A program made the translations under genes and the position numbers. A DNA stretch of 20,644 bases from Syncephalis fuscata (Eukaryota > Zoopagomycota > Zoopagomycetes > Zoopagales > Piptocephalidaceae). The stretch spans positions 1 to 20,644 of the forward strand of contig JAHLTZ010000163.1 in the NCBI GenBank assembly GCA_025786725.1, written 5' to 3'. Of the stretch, positions 4,820 to 15,385 are shown in pieces (position 1 is the stretch's first letter; each line of letters starts with the position of its first letter). Under the pieces are notes generated by a model that ran no database searches, was not told where the DNA came from, and saw only the letters and a program-made list of their open reading frames with translations.

Positions 4820-7800
4820 TTATCCTATTTAATAAATAATATGTTAAATGTCATATAGTTAACATATCTGCTACTTTTATATAATTACACTTGCCCTTTA
4901 TTGGGTCTAAGTTATTAAGCATTACAATACATAACATATATTTAATACTTGTTTGGTTAATATACAACTCCACTTACTGGCTATTAATATAAATTGTTAA
5001 GCATCCACAGCATATAGCATGTAATTAGTATGTAGTTAGTTAGTATACAATATTATTTACCGCCTATCAGCATAAAGTATTAAATATATCCAAGATGTAG
5101 CATATAATTAGTACATATCCACTTACTGCGTAATTTTACTTACCATCTATTAATACAAATTATTGAACATATAATAATATTGGATTAATGCATAGTTAAT
5201 ATAAAATGTCACTTACGGCCTATCAGTATAGGTTATTAAACACACACAACATATAGCATATAATTAGTACATAGTTAGTTAGTTAATAGATAGTGTCACT
5301 TACCAGCTATTAATACAGATTATTTAGCATGCAATGGTATTTAATTAATGCATAGTTAGTTAATATAAAATATTACTTACGACCTATTAATACAGGTCAT
5401 TAAACATCCACAACGTATATCATGTAATTAATACATATTTGCTAGTATATTATATCACTTACGAGCTATCATTATAGATTATTAAACACCCACAACATAC
5501 AGCATGTAATTAGTACATATCCACTCACTGCATAATTTCACTTACCAACTATTAATACAAATTATTAAGCACAAAGTGTACATTATTTAGTTAGTACACA
5601 GTTGATGGATATGCAATGCCACTTACAAACTATTAATACAAATTATTGAGCATGCAATGGTATTTAATTAATGCATAGTTAGTTGATATAAAATATTACT
5701 TACGACCTATTAATATAAATTATTGAGCACACAGTGTATAGTATTTAGTTAGTACATAGTTGATGGATATGCAATGCCACTTACCAACTATTAATACAAA
5801 TTATTGAGCATGCAATGGTATTTAATTAGTACATAGTTAGTTAATATAAAATATCACTTACCAACTATTAATACAGGTTATTAAGCACACAGTGTATGGT
5901 ATTTAGTTAGTACATAGTTGATGGATATGCAATGTCACTTACGAGCTATTAATACAAATTATTGAGCATGCAATGGTATTTAATTAATGCATAGTTAGTT
6001 AATATAAAATATTACTTACGACCTATTAATACAGGTTATTAAGCACAAAGTGTATAGTATTTAGTTAGTATATAGTTGATGGATATGCAATGTCACTTAC
6101 GAACTATTAATATAAATTATTGAGCATACAATGGTATTTAATTAATGCATAGTTAGTTAATATAAAATATCACTTACCTTCTATCAATACAGGTTATCAA
6201 GCACACACAACATATAATATGTAGTTAGTATACAGTTAGCTAATATAAAATATCACTTACCATCTATCAATACAGGTTATTAACCACCCACAATGTATAG
6301 TATGTAATTAGTATACAGTTAGCCAATATAAAATGTCACTTACGATCTATCAATATAGATTATTAAACACCCACAACGTATAGTATGTAATTAGTATATC
6401 ATTAGTAATATAAAATATCACTTACTATCTATCAATACAGGTTATTGAGTACATATTGTATAGTATGTAGTTAACACATATTTGCTAGTATATGATATTA
6501 CTTACGACCTATTAATCCAGGTTATTAAGCATCCACAATATATAATATGTAGTTAGTACATAGTTGGTTAATATAAATATCACTTACTTTCTATTAATAC
6601 AGGTTATTGAACACATAACGTATAGCATGTAATTAATACATATTTGTTAGTATATTATGTCACTTACTATCTATCAAAATAAATTATTAAACACCCACAA
6701 CATATAGCATGTAGTTAGTACATAGTTAATATAAATGTCACCAGCGTCCCCCAAGCTGAAGGCTCCGGGTTCAAACTGAGGTTTGAGCCAATCCTTAAGT
6801 GGAAAATCCTCCCCCCAGTTTTCTAGCTCAACCAGTTTAAATATTAGGCCGGAACAAGACCTTGGCCAGAATAGCCGAGGAAAACTCAATTGGGACCAAC
6901 TTTAAGAGAATAGTGCTGTATAGCACCATTCAAAAAAAAGATAACCCTCACGTAAAATCTATATGGACCAGATTTTGTGCAAAAACGTGGCAGTCCACCC
7001 GTTAAAAGTTTGGAAAAGTCCAAATATAGTGGGAAGCAACGCAAATTCTTTAATTCTGTGCAGCAGGGGGCTCACAAGCTCTTCAAAATAAAATAATATA
7101 AAATGCCACTTACAATCTAGCAATACAGGTTATTAAGCACATAATGTATAGCATGTGATTAGTATATAATTTATTGATATGCAATGTCACTTACGAGCTA
7201 TCATTATAGATTATTAAACGCCCACAGCATATAGTTAGTACAGACTTGGTTAATATAAAACATCACTCACCAACTATTAATACAAGTTATTAGGCATCCA
7301 TAACGTATAATATGTAATTAGTATATAGTTGGTTAATATAAAAATGTCACTTACAATCTATTAACATAAAGTATTAAACATGTCCAAGATGTAGCATATA
7401 ATTAGTACATATTCACTTACTACATAATTTCACTTACCAACTATTAATACAGGTTATTGAGCACACAGTGTACATTATTTAGTTAGTACATAGTTGATGG
7501 ATATGCAATGCCACTTACTAACTATTAATACAAATTATTGAGCATGCAATGGTATTTAGTTAATGCATAGTGAATATAAAATGTCACTTACGAGCTATCA
7601 GTATAGGTTATTAAACACACACAACATATAGCATGCAATTAGTACATAGTTAATATACAGCATTATTTACCATCTATTAACACAATCATCAAGCACACAC
7701 AGCGCATAGCACATAATTAATGCATAATTGGTCGATATACAATGTCACTTACCGCCTATTAACACAATTATCAAGCACACACGGCGCATAACACATAATT

Positions 7801-8557
7801 AATGCATAGCTAGTTGATATACAGTGTCACTTACGACCTGTTAAAATAGTTACCAAACACACACAGTACATAGCATGTGATTAGTACATAGCTAGTTAAT
7901 ATACAATTTCACTCACGTTCTATCGATACAAATTATTAAACATACATCAGATAGCATGTAGTTAATGTCTAATTGAGTTATAGACTACGTCACTTACCAA
8001 CTGTTTATGTAGATTGTTAAACATGATTTATATTATATGTTAGCGCATAGCTGGTTAGTATATGATGCACTCACGAGCTATCAGAGTTAAATTGGTAAAA
8101 AACAATATTTGATTAAATAAATGAATTATTGTTTTTACCGTAGTTTACCTCCTATTGATGCAAATGCAGCACATTAGTATCATCAATGTAATATTTATTT
8201 ATTGCTTTATGTTAAACCTACTTTTAGCCAATGGCGCTGGTTGACCCATTGTATATTAAAACAATAATTAACCAGCATATCAGTAAATATTTATAATCAA
8301 TACTTACCGACTGTTTATGCGTGTGTTGATTGTGTGTATGGCAATATTCAATAAGTGTTGGAACAATAGTTCATAATCATGGCTTACCGGCTAATACCAT
8401 CATCGGTTAAATATAATGTTAGTAAGCGTATCAAATTCCAAATTTATTGCAAGTAAAACATACCACGACGGATTCGGTTTGGTTTAGCATCCACCATGAC
8501 AGTATTGACCACGAAAGCCACGACGAGGGTGCAGACGACGGCAATAGAAAGCTTCAT
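4820..8557 (-). CDS. Secreted prepropeptide gene made of tandem single-codon microexons
   Basis: Exon 1 (8464-8557) encodes 31 residues: start MKLSIAVVC, a hydrophobic core to about residue 22, a likely signal cleavage after VDA (24), then KPNRIRR, ending in phase 1 before GTATGT. Then come two 3-nt exons (8388, 8308), a 15-nt exon (8222-8236), 36 more 3-nt exons from 8149 down to 4978, and a terminal exon at 4906. Each sits exactly between an AG and a GT donor, and all introns are phase 1. Predicted residues: AVAPLAKR (32-39), ALERR (40-44), DALIDFAHYKSHNHEV (45-60), RPLVGLFARPGHGA (61-74), then NPIKG. The RR/KR/RR sites fit Kex2-type processing. The 3' end is ambiguous: a GC-AG intron (4825-4894) gives a stop at 4820-4822; read-through gives 18 residues and a stop at 4851-4853. 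No homologue is recognised. Exon 1 and the splice sites are seen directly; the splicing is inferred. Confidence 0.72.
4907..8463 (-). repeat. Tandem array of homologous intron-like units separated by triplets
   Basis: Minus-strand units run donor GTAAGTG, branch-like TACTAAC or TACTAAT, acceptor TTAATAG, then three variable bases, then the next donor. Plus-strand start coordinates of the 38 triplets: 4978, 5061, 5144, 5217, 5304, 5381, 5463, 5546, 5627, 5704, 5785, 5862, 5943, 6020, 6101, 6178, 6261, 6344, 6426, 6506, 6588, 6668, 7114, 7195, 7271, 7355, 7438, 7519, 7592, 7671, 7753, 7835, 7917, 7998, 8075, 8149, 8308, 8388. Spacing is 73-87 nt except across an insertion (6668-7114) and around the 15-nt exon (8149-8308). 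Unit length is not a multiple of three, so the array is not a translated repeat. Donors vary mildly (GTAAGT, GTGAGT, GTAAAT, GTAAAC); all acceptors keep AG. Divergence rises toward exon 1 (8000-8460), suggesting the array grew away from it. Confidence 0.9.
6742..7093 (+). mobile_element. SINE-like insertion inside one array intron
   Basis: About 352 bp of clearly different composition (more GC, no array words) splits the intron between the triplets at 6668 and 7114. The flanks look like a target-site duplication: taatataaatgtcac at 6727-6741 and taatataaaatgccac at 7094-7109. Near the left end ggctccgggttcaaactgag (6771-6790) holds a GGTTCAAAC match to the Pol III B box, and the right end is A-rich (caaaataaaa). 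This fits a 5'-truncated tRNA-derived SINE in plus orientation, opposite to the host gene. No A box is evident, so class assignment is tentative. A hairpin gtgctgtatagcac lies near 6913-6926. The open minus-strand frame across it is not a gene. Confidence 0.6.
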
Positions 8558-11152: not shown

Positions 11153-14100
11153 TTACTTGTCTGCCTCATCGTCTTCATCATGGCTGCCATTGCTTGATTG
11201 GCAGCTTGTCATGCCTACACTTGTCATGCCCAGACTTGTCAAACCCAAATTTGTCGTACTTGGTTCATAATCTGCAACCATATTGGCAGGGAAACCGCCC
11301 AACCATTGATATTGTGATGGTATGAAATAGCCATTTCTGTCAAATGCACCAATACGACCATCGTGTCTAGATCGTGAGCTGATAAGCGCAGTTTCCATCT
11401 CAACAGTAGCGTCCAAATCAAGTAGACGTCGTGTAGGATTGTTGGGCAGCCATAGACGCCAAGAAAGTGGCCGAATAACATCGGGATCAACATAGACGTC
11501 CTCGTCAATATCACCGGTAAGATCTTGATGATAACGCCGACAAGACACGTGGCGCCGTTGAGGTGTGTAAGGATTTGGATAAGCTTCACCATGTGGGCCA
11601 TGACCTGTAACAAGATCAGCTCGTACATCCATCGTTGGGCTACTCGACGAAACAGATCGGTCGGGTACGGTACTTGCACCACCGTTATTCGCTTGATTAC
11701 TGGCAAGGGACTGACCACCTAATTCGCTTAGATGTGGCGATAATCCAAGCCCATTTGAGTTCTCAGTAAGTGGTGATGGAATCTGCACAGTAAGTGGCCG
11801 ATGTAGATCAAGGGAAACACGCCGATGTATTTGCTGTTTAGTGGATAGTCGACCTTTTTCTTGATGATTGCTACTTGAGTGGTTCAGTGGACGGCTACTT
11901 CCTTGTTGGGACGATGCCCGATTAAGGCGACGATATGCCGGTAGACCATCATTGTTATAATTAGTAGTATTACTATTGTTTGTAAATGGTCGCAAAGGCC
12001 AATGGAATCGTCGGGGATTAGCAGCTAAAGCAGGTGTTGTTGATGCAGTAGATGCGGTGTTAGCCGTATCAGTACGTTGCATCGCTAAACCCATATCGGC
12101 CGATGCAGCCGAGTCGACACGTTGCCGTATCGGATAGAATGCATCTACATACTGCATTTCTGGACGGTCATCGCTATTTACCATCTTGTCGGCATTGGGA
12201 TAAGGCGATGGCAGTAAATCGTCTGAATTTAAGCTTGATAGCTCGCCTTCTTCTTTGGCATCTGACGGAGATAAATGCGTGTGTGCGCTAGTCTTTTCTA
12301 TAGACTCGTGCTGTTCTGCAGTATGTCCATTCGAACTATGCGTGGCTATAGAGCCCGGCCCGGACGAATGAAGTCCAGGCCCACCGTAGTTATCGACATT
12401 GTTCGTAAATCGCATAATTGCTTGATTTCGTACTGTATCCAAAGGTGGCTGTGGTGTAGGCTCAGAGCCTGTACACGGTGAACCTTGCATAAAACTGACG
12501 ACATCAACGCCACCTCCTCGTTTGGCATCGGTAATTACTGGACGGCCATCAAGTGCCACGCTTTCATCGCCTACATGTGCGTGTGTCCGATCAACAACCA
12601 TAACACCAGTATCCCGTAGCGATTCAAGGGGAATATACTTGATACGACGATAGAAGCTTTTGTGGCACCAAAGAAGAAACGCAATGGTTAGTACAATAGG
12701 CGGTGCTAAGGCTATGCTAGCATAAGTCATCTCTTTCAGCGTAAGAACGCCAATCATTGTAAGATGTACAAGGAGTAGACTGCTAACGGTATAGGTAAAT
12801 GCTTTACGCCAGTAACGGCCACCAGTCTCGTAACGACGTACGTAAGCATAGGCAAATTGATGTTTAAATACAAGATAGGCTGTGGCAAAATAAATTGCTC
12901 CAAATATCAAGATAAGCGGATTAATAACTGCGTATATCATAGCAATAACGAGCATAAGAATATGCAATGGAAAATAATAGAAATAAGGGAAACTCATTGG
13001 TGATGTTCGCTGTTGAAATGTACGCGGTGCATTGCGTATTATTCCCGAGGTCATAAGGATAGCGTAGATAAATGGAACAAATAGTTGTAATAATTCGAGT
13101 GAGTGAATACATGTACTGAACACGATATAGTTAATAAAAAATGTTGCTCCCTAAATAATAATACAAATTAGTCAATTAGTTAATTAGTAGTTAGTAATCT
13201 ATTTGTTATCAATAATAATAGTTTGTTATTTACCTGTGGAATTACTTTGCCTAATGTATCATAAATGCTTTGTTTACCAGATAAAACATCAGCAAAAGAG
13301 TCGAGAAAAGTACGGCCTAGCAGAAATACAATAACAATATTGAAAATAGCAAATAGATAATAACGACGTAATGTAACCGCTTCAACAGCCGAATAAGTAG
13401 GTAGCGATTCAGCACGTTCCGATATATCTATTTCATAATAATTGTTATTAACATTATAAACACTAATATTGGTTATTAATTAATACTTACGAAGCAAGAT
13501 ATAAGGCAGAATTGACATGAGCAGTGCAATAATTAATGTTGGCAGTGTATTTTTTATAAATGCCGCCAAATACGGCACTTCCCTATTCAGCCGTTCAAGT
13601 ATATCGGTTCCTCCCGCGAGTTTATCAAAATTAGTCAGTACAAGTACACTGGACATAATAAAGAACCAAAATACTGTTAATACACTATAAATAATAAATA
13701 ATTATTAGTAGTCAAATATAACAATAGTATATAGGCGTGTAACTTACGAAACAGCAATGTTAACCGTTGTTCTGCGTGCTCGTCGAGATGTTAGATTAAC
13801 CTTATGATTCTGCCAAATAATATCACGTGGTGTTGGCGCCATACGAATACGGCATCGGCTGGCATCAACACTAATAAGACTTTGTGCACATAGTTGTGCC
13901 GAAGCAGGATGTACAAATGTAACAAATCCAGTAGCTGTAGGCTTTGCATCTCGTACATAGGATGCACGCAACTCAGCTACACGTCGATCCTGTTTGTTAA
14001 ACTTGCGTAGATGATAATCAATGGCTGGCTGTTGACGAGCTGGATGAGACCGTACACTTAAACGCATTGGCTGAAATGGATCAAGTGCTTCACGTGGCAG

Positions 14101-15385
14101 TTGGCTCAATGTACGCCAAATGTCAAAATTGCTATCATGATCCATTGATGCATTTGGATCCAATAGAAAAGCGTTTCCGTGTCTATTTCTTGTGGCTGCA
14201 GTTAAAATATTTGTAGATGCACGACGCATCACAGCACTTGATGGGCCAGGTGAATTTATACCCATGGCCCGGGATATTGTTGAAAGCATTGATGGTCTTT
14301 CCTCAATGTTAGGGGTCGGCCTTGCTGCCTCTCCAATACGCAGGGGAGATGACGACATTAGATCGCCCACAGTATCCTCAGCATTGGCCAATGAATCTGC
14401 GTGTTGTTGGCTAACTGTAGTAGTAATGGCAGCAGCAGCATCTTCACGATTGCATGGACCATTTCCTGAACTATTACGTCGTTCATGCGTTCGTGTCTCC
14501 ACCGCACTTAAAATATTACAGGCCAGCTCAATATGCAATTGCTCCAGCTCCATAAGATGTTGTTCACGCCTTGCTAAACGTCGGTGTAATTTACCAGAAC
14601 TTCGTAGTACTACCGCTTTCTCAACCTGTCCAATGCCCAAACTAGTAAAATGGTGTCGTAGCTTGTCATCGGTTCGCAAGTGCTTTGGCAGCTCGGTGAC
14701 CATAACTGTTCTGGCGCATAGCATGCCATCACGTACACGGCTTAAATTGAATTCACGACATAAATGTTCATACGCACACATGTCGCGGTAGAATAGCCAT
14801 ATTGTAAGTGCGGTAAATACGTAGATTAGAATCATATGGACATAAAGCACAGGTTCCTTATTGGGAATCTGCGACATGGAAAATATTTCGAGCTCTACGG
14901 GCTGTCCAGCATCTTCGTTTGTGCCATTATGGTGTAATCTAATATGGCTACTACCGCGATTCAATGGCATCAATGCACAGCCAATAATTAGCGTTGAAAT
15001 GAGCATCAATCGAAAAGATGTCTTTAAATAACGCAGATGCATCACTGTGTCGAGACCAGTGTGTGATAGCATAAAATCCTCCGATAACTTTAACGTAGCG
15101 GGAATCCATTGAAACAAGCCCGCTGGAATAGGCGGAGTGGCATTTCTAATATTGAAAATGCGCACACACATACGCCCACCATTAATTAGATAATTATCCC
15201 AGTATTCATTCACATACTTACTTGGTTAATCTACACCTTGGCGTGTACAGATGTGCCAATCGTTTAGTACGGCGTACTATCTCGAATGCAGCCACGGACA
15301 AAATCGTAATGCCCCAAGAAATACCCAGTTGTGTTCCGAGGCCTATAAACGATGCATTATACACGCGTGCATCAATCGACGCCAT
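11153..15385 (-). CDS. CSC1: CSC1/OSCA/TMEM63-like calcium-permeable stress-gated cation channel (DUF221), five exons
   Basis: Multi-pass plasma or vacuolar membrane channel family gated by osmotic or mechanical stress. Exons 15222-15385, 13748-15145, 13491-13684, 13234-13427 and 11153-13150 join in frame to 1315 residues plus stop. Order: TM0 in exon 1 (FIGLGTQLGISWGITILSV); TM1 (LMLISTLIIGCALMPL) and TM2 (YVHMILIYVFTALTIWLF) in exon 2, followed by the cytosolic PHM7-type domain; exons 3-5 carry the pore helices, with VFWFFIMSSVLVLTNFDKL, PTLIIALLMSILPYILL, RRYYLFAIFNIVIVFLLG and YYFPLHILMLVIAMIYAVIN. The family is usually about 700-1000 residues; here a Ser/Ala/Asn-rich insert of about 200 residues expands the cytosolic domain, and a polar, probably disordered tail of nearly 500 residues follows the last helix. 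The start at 15385 (MASIDARVYN) gives the expected extracellular N-terminus. Family assignment is secure; the exact orthologue (CSC1, RSN1 or PHM7) is not. Confidence 0.93.

Follow-up and report, generated by a model that had tools for sequence, protein, structure and literature searches.

On the minus strand of a 20,644-nucleotide stretch of DNA from the fungus Syncephalis fuscata (JAHLTZ010000163.1, the entire contig C72, referred to below as the window), positions 8557 to 4820 very probably hold a gene in which single-codon exons are strung in series between phase-1 introns. Going by its sequence, it is highly likely that this gene specifies a small secreted peptide, probably subject to KEX2-type processing, and that nearly all of the codons after the first dibasic site are exons in their own right. 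An initial annotation of this DNA had made the core proposal of a secreted-peptide gene with serial single-codon exons and phase-1 introns, and that proposal is borne out by the avoidance of stop codons where adjacent triplets join, by unsplit paralogs, and by a contrast between the evolution of the triplets and that of the introns. Syncephalis is a genus of mycoparasites within the Zoopagales, according to portions of two papers (PMC6784888, PMC10386755), and much of what follows concerns a family of such genes in the 28.95-Mb S. fuscata assembly (299 contigs), to which all genome-wide counts refer.

Exon layout of the minus-strand gene

The pattern [CT]AG-NNN-GT[AG][AT]G, in which three bases lie between an acceptor and a donor, occurs at 35 sites on the minus strand from 8557 to 4820, where 500 first-order Markov shuffles give a mean of 0.5 and a maximum of 4; elsewhere in the window there is none on the other 16.9 kb of the minus strand, and the whole plus strand has two. 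A gene model built on these splice motifs consists of exon 1, 38 exons of 3 nucleotides (nt), one exon of 15 nt and a terminal exon, which makes 41 exons, 40 introns and 75 codons, and all 39 of its internal exons (the 38 of 3 nt and the one of 15 nt) are symmetric and of phase 1. If a weak exon of 12 nt (4906-4895), whose donor is GC, is admitted, the totals rise to 42 exons, 41 introns and 79 codons in an alternative, longer model. The count of 38 triplets between AG and GTAAGT-like donors given in the initial annotation is the same as ours, and its figures of about 41 exons and 40 introns stand; its figure of about 79 codons belongs only to the longer model, and in one detail the model departs from it, since one internal exon is of 15 nt and not 3 nt.

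The splice signals are of ordinary appearance. Donors of the 38 triplets are GTAAGT in 31 cases, GTGAGT in three, GTAAAT in two, and GTAAGC and GTAAAC in one each, and the acceptors are TAG in 35 cases and CAG in three. The TACTAAY-like branch sites that had been pointed out earlier are present, TACTAAY itself occurring in 25 of the 41 introns of the longer model (1.0 expected from shuffles) and YTAAY in 40 of them (20.7 expected). Introns of that model are 70-84 nt long, with the exception of one of 443 nt that contains a 311-base-pair (bp) repeat, and the last intron of the 40-intron model is 153 nt. Exon 1 encodes MKLSIAVVCTLVVAFVVNTVMVDA...RR, in which a signal peptide-like segment was recognized by inspection, and the spliced precursor of 75 residues would read MKLSIAVVCTLVVAFVVNTVMVDAKPNRIRR-AVAPLAKR-ALERRDALIDFAHYKSHNHEVRPLVGLFARPGHGAR, or have 79 residues with the doubtful 12-nt exon. 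The array has the look of tandem duplication, with TRF periods of 77, 82 and 158 bp. The parts of the gene are listed here, the small exons as placed by the splice-motif model; L numbers denote other loci in the genome.

8464..8557, minus strand: exon 1, with start codon, signal-peptide-like segment, dibasic RR, a phase-1 end (first codon base) and donor GTATGT
8388..8390, minus strand: 3-nt exon CCG, the same triplet as in L022, L023 and L030-L032
8308..8310, minus strand: 3-nt exon TCG
8222..8236, minus strand: 15-nt exon CGCCATTGGCTAAAA, giving with its neighbours APLAKR (dibasic site), uninterrupted as EPLAKR in the unsplit paralog L025
8149..8151, minus strand: 3-nt exon GAG
8075..8077, minus strand: 3-nt exon CTC
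7998..8000, minus strand: 3-nt exon TTG
7917..7919, minus strand: 3-nt exon AAC
7835..7837, minus strand: 3-nt exon GTC
7753..7755, minus strand: 3-nt exon GCG
7671..7673, minus strand: 3-nt exon ATG
7592..7594, minus strand: 3-nt exon CTC
7519..7521, minus strand: 3-nt exon TTA
7438..7440, minus strand: 3-nt exon TTG
7355..7357, minus strand: 3-nt exon ATT
7271..7273, minus strand: 3-nt exon TTG
7195..7197, minus strand: 3-nt exon CTC
7114..7116, minus strand: 3-nt exon ATT
6668..6670, minus strand: 3-nt exon ATA
6588..6590, minus strand: 3-nt exon AAA
6506..6508, minus strand: 3-nt exon GTC
6426..6428, minus strand: 3-nt exon ATA
6344..6346, minus strand: 3-nt exon ATC
6261..6263, minus strand: 3-nt exon ATG
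6178..6180, minus strand: 3-nt exon AAG
6101..6103, minus strand: 3-nt exon TTC
6020..6022, minus strand: 3-nt exon GTC
5943..5945, minus strand: 3-nt exon CTC
5862..5864, minus strand: 3-nt exon TTG
5785..5787, minus strand: 3-nt exon TTG
5704..5706, minus strand: 3-nt exon GTC
5627..5629, minus strand: 3-nt exon TTT
5546..5548, minus strand: 3-nt exon TTG
5463..5465, minus strand: 3-nt exon CTC
5381..5383, minus strand: 3-nt exon GTC
5304..5306, minus strand: 3-nt exon CTG
5217..5219, minus strand: 3-nt exon GCC
5144..5146, minus strand: 3-nt exon ATG
5061..5063, minus strand: 3-nt exon GCG
4978..4980, minus strand: 3-nt exon CCA, the final triplet
4895..4906, minus strand: doubtful 12-nt exon with GC donor, at a place where L022 and L023 have an ordinary 3-nt AAG exon
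4820..4824, minus strand: start of the terminal exon, two bases finishing the last codon, then stop TAA (4822-4820), then post-stop sequence
5138..6690, minus strand: TRF tandem-repeat calls in the array, period 158 (9.2 copies, 5138-6610) and period 77 (17.8 copies, 5261-6690)

Reading frame and probable inclusion of the triplets

The frame that exon 1 sets would make each codon from the last base of one triplet and the first two bases of the next (phase 1). This frame was examined in a sample of 446 triplets, forming 418 adjacent pairs in 28 arrays at 18 loci that were chosen by signal exon or by array; 12 triplets shared by L043 and L025, which overlap when L025 is read in reverse, enter the sample once. 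Not one of the 418 pairs makes a phase-1 stop, against 14.5 when triplet order is shuffled within arrays (none of 2000 shuffles reaches zero), whereas across the same pairs phase 2 gives 30 stops against 29.3 expected; with a single array locus kept per close group, phase 1 gives 0 stops in 245 pairs against 11.9 expected. Genome-wide, ATAG-NNN-GTAAGT pairs at one-unit spacing number 2,332, and the reversed pattern none; in these, adjacent joins make TAA or TGA four times against 89.3 expected, a depletion of about 22-fold, the expectation being taken from the margins (672 pairs with T as last base, 310 with AA or GA next). A T placed before a purine and a pyrimidine, which makes no stop, shows no depletion in the sample (37 against 33.2 expected). 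The sole four strict joins giving TAA or TGA lie at C135:365083, C165:4047, C230:153974 and C256:740876, two of them near-identical, and the genes there are possibly pseudogenes.

No such avoidance is seen when a triplet is passed over. Joins that skip one triplet make TAA or TGA in 87 of 2,195 cases genome-wide, against 84.1 expected from the adjacent-pair margins, and stops in the sample at lags 2 to 6 number 15, 11, 9, 11 and 8 against expectations of 13.8, 12.7, 11.9, 11.2 and 10.5; lag 7 alone is low, with 5 against 9.8 (76 of 2000 shuffles are equally low). That stops are avoided at adjacent joins and not at skipped ones implies that the products on which selection has worked had every triplet spliced to the one next to it; the triplets are very probably coding, read in the exon-1 frame, and all included in order. 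It is worth considering, in this light, a combinatorial mode of splicing in which the 3-nt exons would be variously skipped to give very many peptide variants per gene. The frame would survive any skipping, since these exons are symmetric, and schistosome micro-exon genes do vary through alternative splicing (according to part of PMC10526429); yet one-unit skips and longer lags, save lag 7, betray no stop avoidance, and the donors are mostly strong, 31 of 38 in the window being GTAAGT. We consider this mode quite improbable, while rare or tolerated skipping of triplets is possible. The initial annotation had left a choice between many variants and remarkable fidelity, and it is faithful inclusion that is favoured.

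The splicing of an array is likely to be a process of intron definition that would move along it one intron per step, each event depositing one codon and readying the next donor, because U1 and U2 sites 3 nt apart could hardly be occupied together. Each 3-nt phase-1 exon would sit between homologous introns of about 75 nt with ordinary splice signals, and all exons would normally be kept in order to give the precursor described above. We infer both the transcription of the array genes and this order of splicing. An acceptor beside a donor also resembles the layout of recursive splice sites. In a recursive scheme, or one of stwintron-like introns nested in each other, each AG-NNN-GTAAGT site would be a way-station in the stepwise removal of a single long intron, and no triplet would be kept in the mRNA. 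Such splicing leaves no exonic remainder, however, and here three bases stay between the sites and are under coding constraint; we judge the scheme extremely improbable, although its stepwise order may be right as the way in which triplets are joined.

Relatives of the gene and origin of the arrays

The 32-residue signal segment has at least 150 scored matches in the genome (the best 150 of 330 candidates), the weakest at an E value of 1.9e-6. Twenty loci with a signal exon, drawn from these 150, were examined: 12 have an array of three or more units on the sense strand, five (L025, L035, L036, L037, L039) run on into unsplit coding sequence, and three (L024, L027, L028) have neither an array nor an unsplit coding continuation by the array caller. 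The five unsplit genes have the same signal exon and very different mature parts (Cys-rich, Pro/Ser-rich and others). A constant leader with differing mature parts is the pattern of toxin-like or effector families. By rough extrapolation from the sample, whose 446 triplets contain 242 strict pairs, the genome has about 4,300 triplets, many of them in segmental duplicates. Small exons number 7 to 54 per gene in 15 gene models, and in seven of these models a terminal exon gives a stop within 0-5 codons. Over the array spans of the 18 sampled loci there are 441 GTAAGT donors, 418 of them exactly 3 nt past the nearest YAG, eight at 6 nt, four at 2 nt, and 11 at other distances or near none, the spans having been picked from chains of 3-nt sites, which favours a distance of three. 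At position 3149 of L040 (gene orientation) there is a 6-nt exon, GCGGCG, where one of 3 nt would be expected, perhaps through doubling within the exon.

Triplets and introns have not changed at the same pace within arrays. Between sister units at 12 array loci, selected as pairs for low flank difference, the triplets differ at 59 of 144 sites (41%) and the flanks at 3.2%, and held-out intron blocks of three bases given the same treatment differ at 5.3%, with a maximum of 9.7%. Between loci, L044 and L045 differ at 0 of 96 triplet sites with a flank threshold of 0.9 and at 2 of 105 with 0.85, and L042 and L043 at 0 of 42 with 0.9, the introns of both duplicates differing by 1.3-1.7%; L022 and L023 differ at 35 of 99 triplet sites and by 3.4% in their introns. 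With the 0.85 threshold, the window triplets differ from L023 at 3 of 27 sites and from L022 at 2 of 24, and L030 differs from L031 at 4 of 21. We do not claim that positive selection alone has made the triplets diverge; homogenization of the introns together with selection holding the triplets fits the within-array pattern equally well. Either selection diversifies the triplets, or recombination homogenizes the introns while selection keeps the triplets; the contrast does not separate the two, and both readings imply triplets that matter.

The spliced model of L041, taken with its post-stop sequence, matches the contiguous gene L037 in a single 535-nt alignment from the start codon (77.6%, E 2.7e-113), and the spliced models of L040 and L043 match it over 505 nt (E 2.5e-107) and 306 nt (E 1e-56), much of the strength of these long matches being owed to exon 1 and the post-stop part. 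For the array part alone, 3 of 2000 exon-order shuffles are equally good for L041, 86 for L040 and 100 for L043. All three have ECxxCxxxC 3-4 residues past RR, as does the unsplit L037, and a third exon of 6 nt in their models; a 6-nt site sharing this flank occurs in L044 and L045. Between the spliced window gene and L025 there is an 89% match over nt 1-119, a span covering exon 1, CCG, TCG, the 15-nt exon and GAG, with RRAVAPLAKRA in the window opposite RRAVEPLAKRA in L025. Judged by these alignments, the unsplit paralogs act as natural cDNAs of the spliced arrays. This has to be set against the idea of the array as satellite DNA, made of decayed copies of an intron and lying in one long non-coding intron, with exon 1 joined to the terminal exon and the triplets mere by-products. 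The units are indeed tandem repeats, and the triplets are absent from the annotated proteins found; but the roughly 22-fold stop depletion at adjacent joins in a single frame, the 41% triplet difference between units whose flanks differ by 3%, the contiguous homologs L037 and L025, and the placement of 426 of 441 GTAAGT donors 3 or 6 nt past a YAG all argue against it, and we regard it as highly improbable.

Several observations do weigh against serial single-codon exons that are spliced in order. The genome-wide counts take in segmental duplicates and duplicated arrays, hence their pairs are not independent, and the exon-order shuffle test is strong only for L041. The array caller finds no array at eight of the 20 signal-exon loci, no terminal exon is found by motif in six of the 15 gene models, and two more (L031, L033) end with a stop inside a 12-nt exon that is itself doubtful. 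The close paralog L022 has two 2-nt joins, at positions 779 and 3052 (gene orientation), and may be broken or decaying, or using other splice sites. Stops are likewise absent in phase 0 (0 of 446 triplets; 5.2 expected in a slightly larger set), probably because either TAA or TGA, placed behind AG, would yield a rival splice site, GTAAGT or GTGAGT. Lastly, the annotated S. fuscata proteins of the family that were found (five, BDF19DRAFT, three of which came up in two protein searches) are without microexon peptides, and one of the annotated proteins, P0007 (contig C236), shares exon 1 of the array locus L026 and then continues into non-microexon sequence. The microexon peptides are probably missing from databases, since the residues of P0007 after exon 1 do not match the microexon peptide. 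A phase-0 reading of the triplets was itself rejected although it is free of stops; the models of L042 and L043 include a TGA triplet, which only a phase-1 reading would tolerate.

L037 is homologous to L041, L040 and L043 beyond the gene on both sides as well, to the fetched limits or for some hundred bases, and the split and unsplit forms are therefore likely to be converted into one another in place. We infer that the simplest route from split to unsplit is intron loss through a spliced copy. The opposite direction, in which an unsplit L037-like ancestor was invaded at every codon by introner-like elements, all in phase 1, is favoured by this same sharing of sequence on either side, one form having probably been converted in place. 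It would require some 30 insertions at an identical codon phase, however, where loss via a spliced copy takes one event; similar tandem units are visible inside the arrays; and a plant 1-nt exon shows the same split and unsplit pairing, attributed to reverse transcription (RT)-mediated loss in the available part of PMC8831610. We think intron gain unlikely, if well short of negligible, and it alters the origin of the arrays, not their present structure.

Under the preferred reading of faithful serial splicing, recombination between similar introns would make arrays grow, shrink and reshuffle, and would keep the frame because one unit adds exactly one codon. The secreted-peptide family of a mycoparasite could thereby alter its products residue by residue, these being presumably secreted, cleaved at RR and KR, and of use toward host fungi. 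With some reserve, we lean toward extending this account to the genome as a codon-resolved architecture, in which thousands of single-codon exons in about a hundred secreted-peptide genes would be spliced stepwise, the introns would be recombination handles for the gain, loss or swap of single residues in frame, and spliced copies would occasionally return unsplit.

Two other features of the window are listed here.

6760..7070, plus strand: 311-bp repeat inside the 443-nt intron
11153-15213, minus strand: CSC1/TMEM63-like gene with short introns

The 311-bp repeat has 40 scored genome copies (of 55 candidates), at 78-88% besides itself, of which 21 are found downstream, by 5 kb at most, of a signal exon in the list of 150 (1.0 expected), 20 of these 21 opposite in orientation to the gene. 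From its boxes, by eye, we take it to resemble a tRNA-derived short interspersed nuclear element (SINE); ARAGORN reports no tRNA in the window, the repeat included, and an Rfam scan of the window gives zero matches at the gathering threshold. The CSC1/TMEM63-like protein matches one of Syncephalis pseudoplumigaleata at 87% across 26% of the query, and the three introns of its gene, chosen by eye and pattern, are 63-83 nt long with GTAAGT or GTAAAT donors and TAG acceptors, so that the splice signals of the array are like those of an ordinary neighbouring gene. Two open frames at 135-2553 on the minus strand, with a putative intron between them, appear by eye to resemble glycogen debranching enzyme.

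Comparison with known systems and significance

It is informative to place this architecture beside known systems, as described in the available parts of the papers cited. Nearest in layout are the schistosome micro-exon genes, 35 genes with 10-20 exons each of 6-81 bp (3-81 in the abstract), mostly 15 bp, with introns of 0.1-5 kb and variation by alternative splicing (PMC10526429); the earlier remark that their exons are longer and fewer agrees with this account. Both begin with a signal-peptide exon, go on through a series of short exons that are mostly symmetric, have variable products that are secreted (presumably so in S. fuscata) and are awkward to annotate (PMC10526429), whereas S. fuscata is a fungus with 3-nt exons almost throughout, mutually repeated introns of about 70-84 nt and stop counts that give no indication of skipping. 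The exon and intron sizes that characterize the schistosome genes do not fit the window gene. When an unsplit member and the spliced peptide of the window gene were used as protein queries, all matches were to S. fuscata and none to the schistosome proteins; short, fast-changing proteins could conceal distant homology.

Nearest in kind of family are the aphid bicycle genes, whose exons are longer than one codon. They average about 17 exons, with over 100 in one gene, and like them (and megacycle) the S. fuscata genes form a large, fast-evolving family of putative effectors with many single-phase microexons; the bicycle genes differ in belonging to an insect and in using phase 2, and tandem intron units are not met with in the available part of PMC9168663. 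The 1-nt exon of Fusarium CYP621A, for which an intronless homolog was used as support (PMC12940212), the 1-nt exons of plant APC11 and VPS55 (PMC8831610) and a microexon of Trichoderma Xlr2 (PMC11121469) show that spliceosomes, fungal ones included, handle exons only one or a few nt long, although each is a lone ultra-small exon in an otherwise ordinary gene. The SP7-like effectors of Rhizophagus are likewise fungal secreted effectors with a signal peptide and serial repeat units, but these are 6-11 imperfect hydrophilic repeats per protein, that is, peptide units and not single codons (PMC11333574). In the text covered by a literature search, with preprints outside its reach, no gene made of consecutive single-codon exons is described, and nothing matches both 'zoopag' and 'microexon'; the word 'intron' is absent from PMC6784888 and PMC10386755. 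We rate the serial single-codon architecture as categorically new, its ingredients (microexons, short introns, tandem duplication) each being known.

If this reading is true, the fragmentation of genes down to one codon per exon would be the common design of a large family, and it would pose the question of how the spliceosome finds and orders about 40 introns whose sites lie 3 nt apart without visible skipping, making these arrays a natural system in which to test intron definition and the order of splicing. Introns may, on this view, have an evolutionary role as recombination units that spare the reading frame and so serve secreted peptides that change fast. Automatic annotation has probably missed a class of peptides in S. 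fuscata, and possibly in other fungi too.

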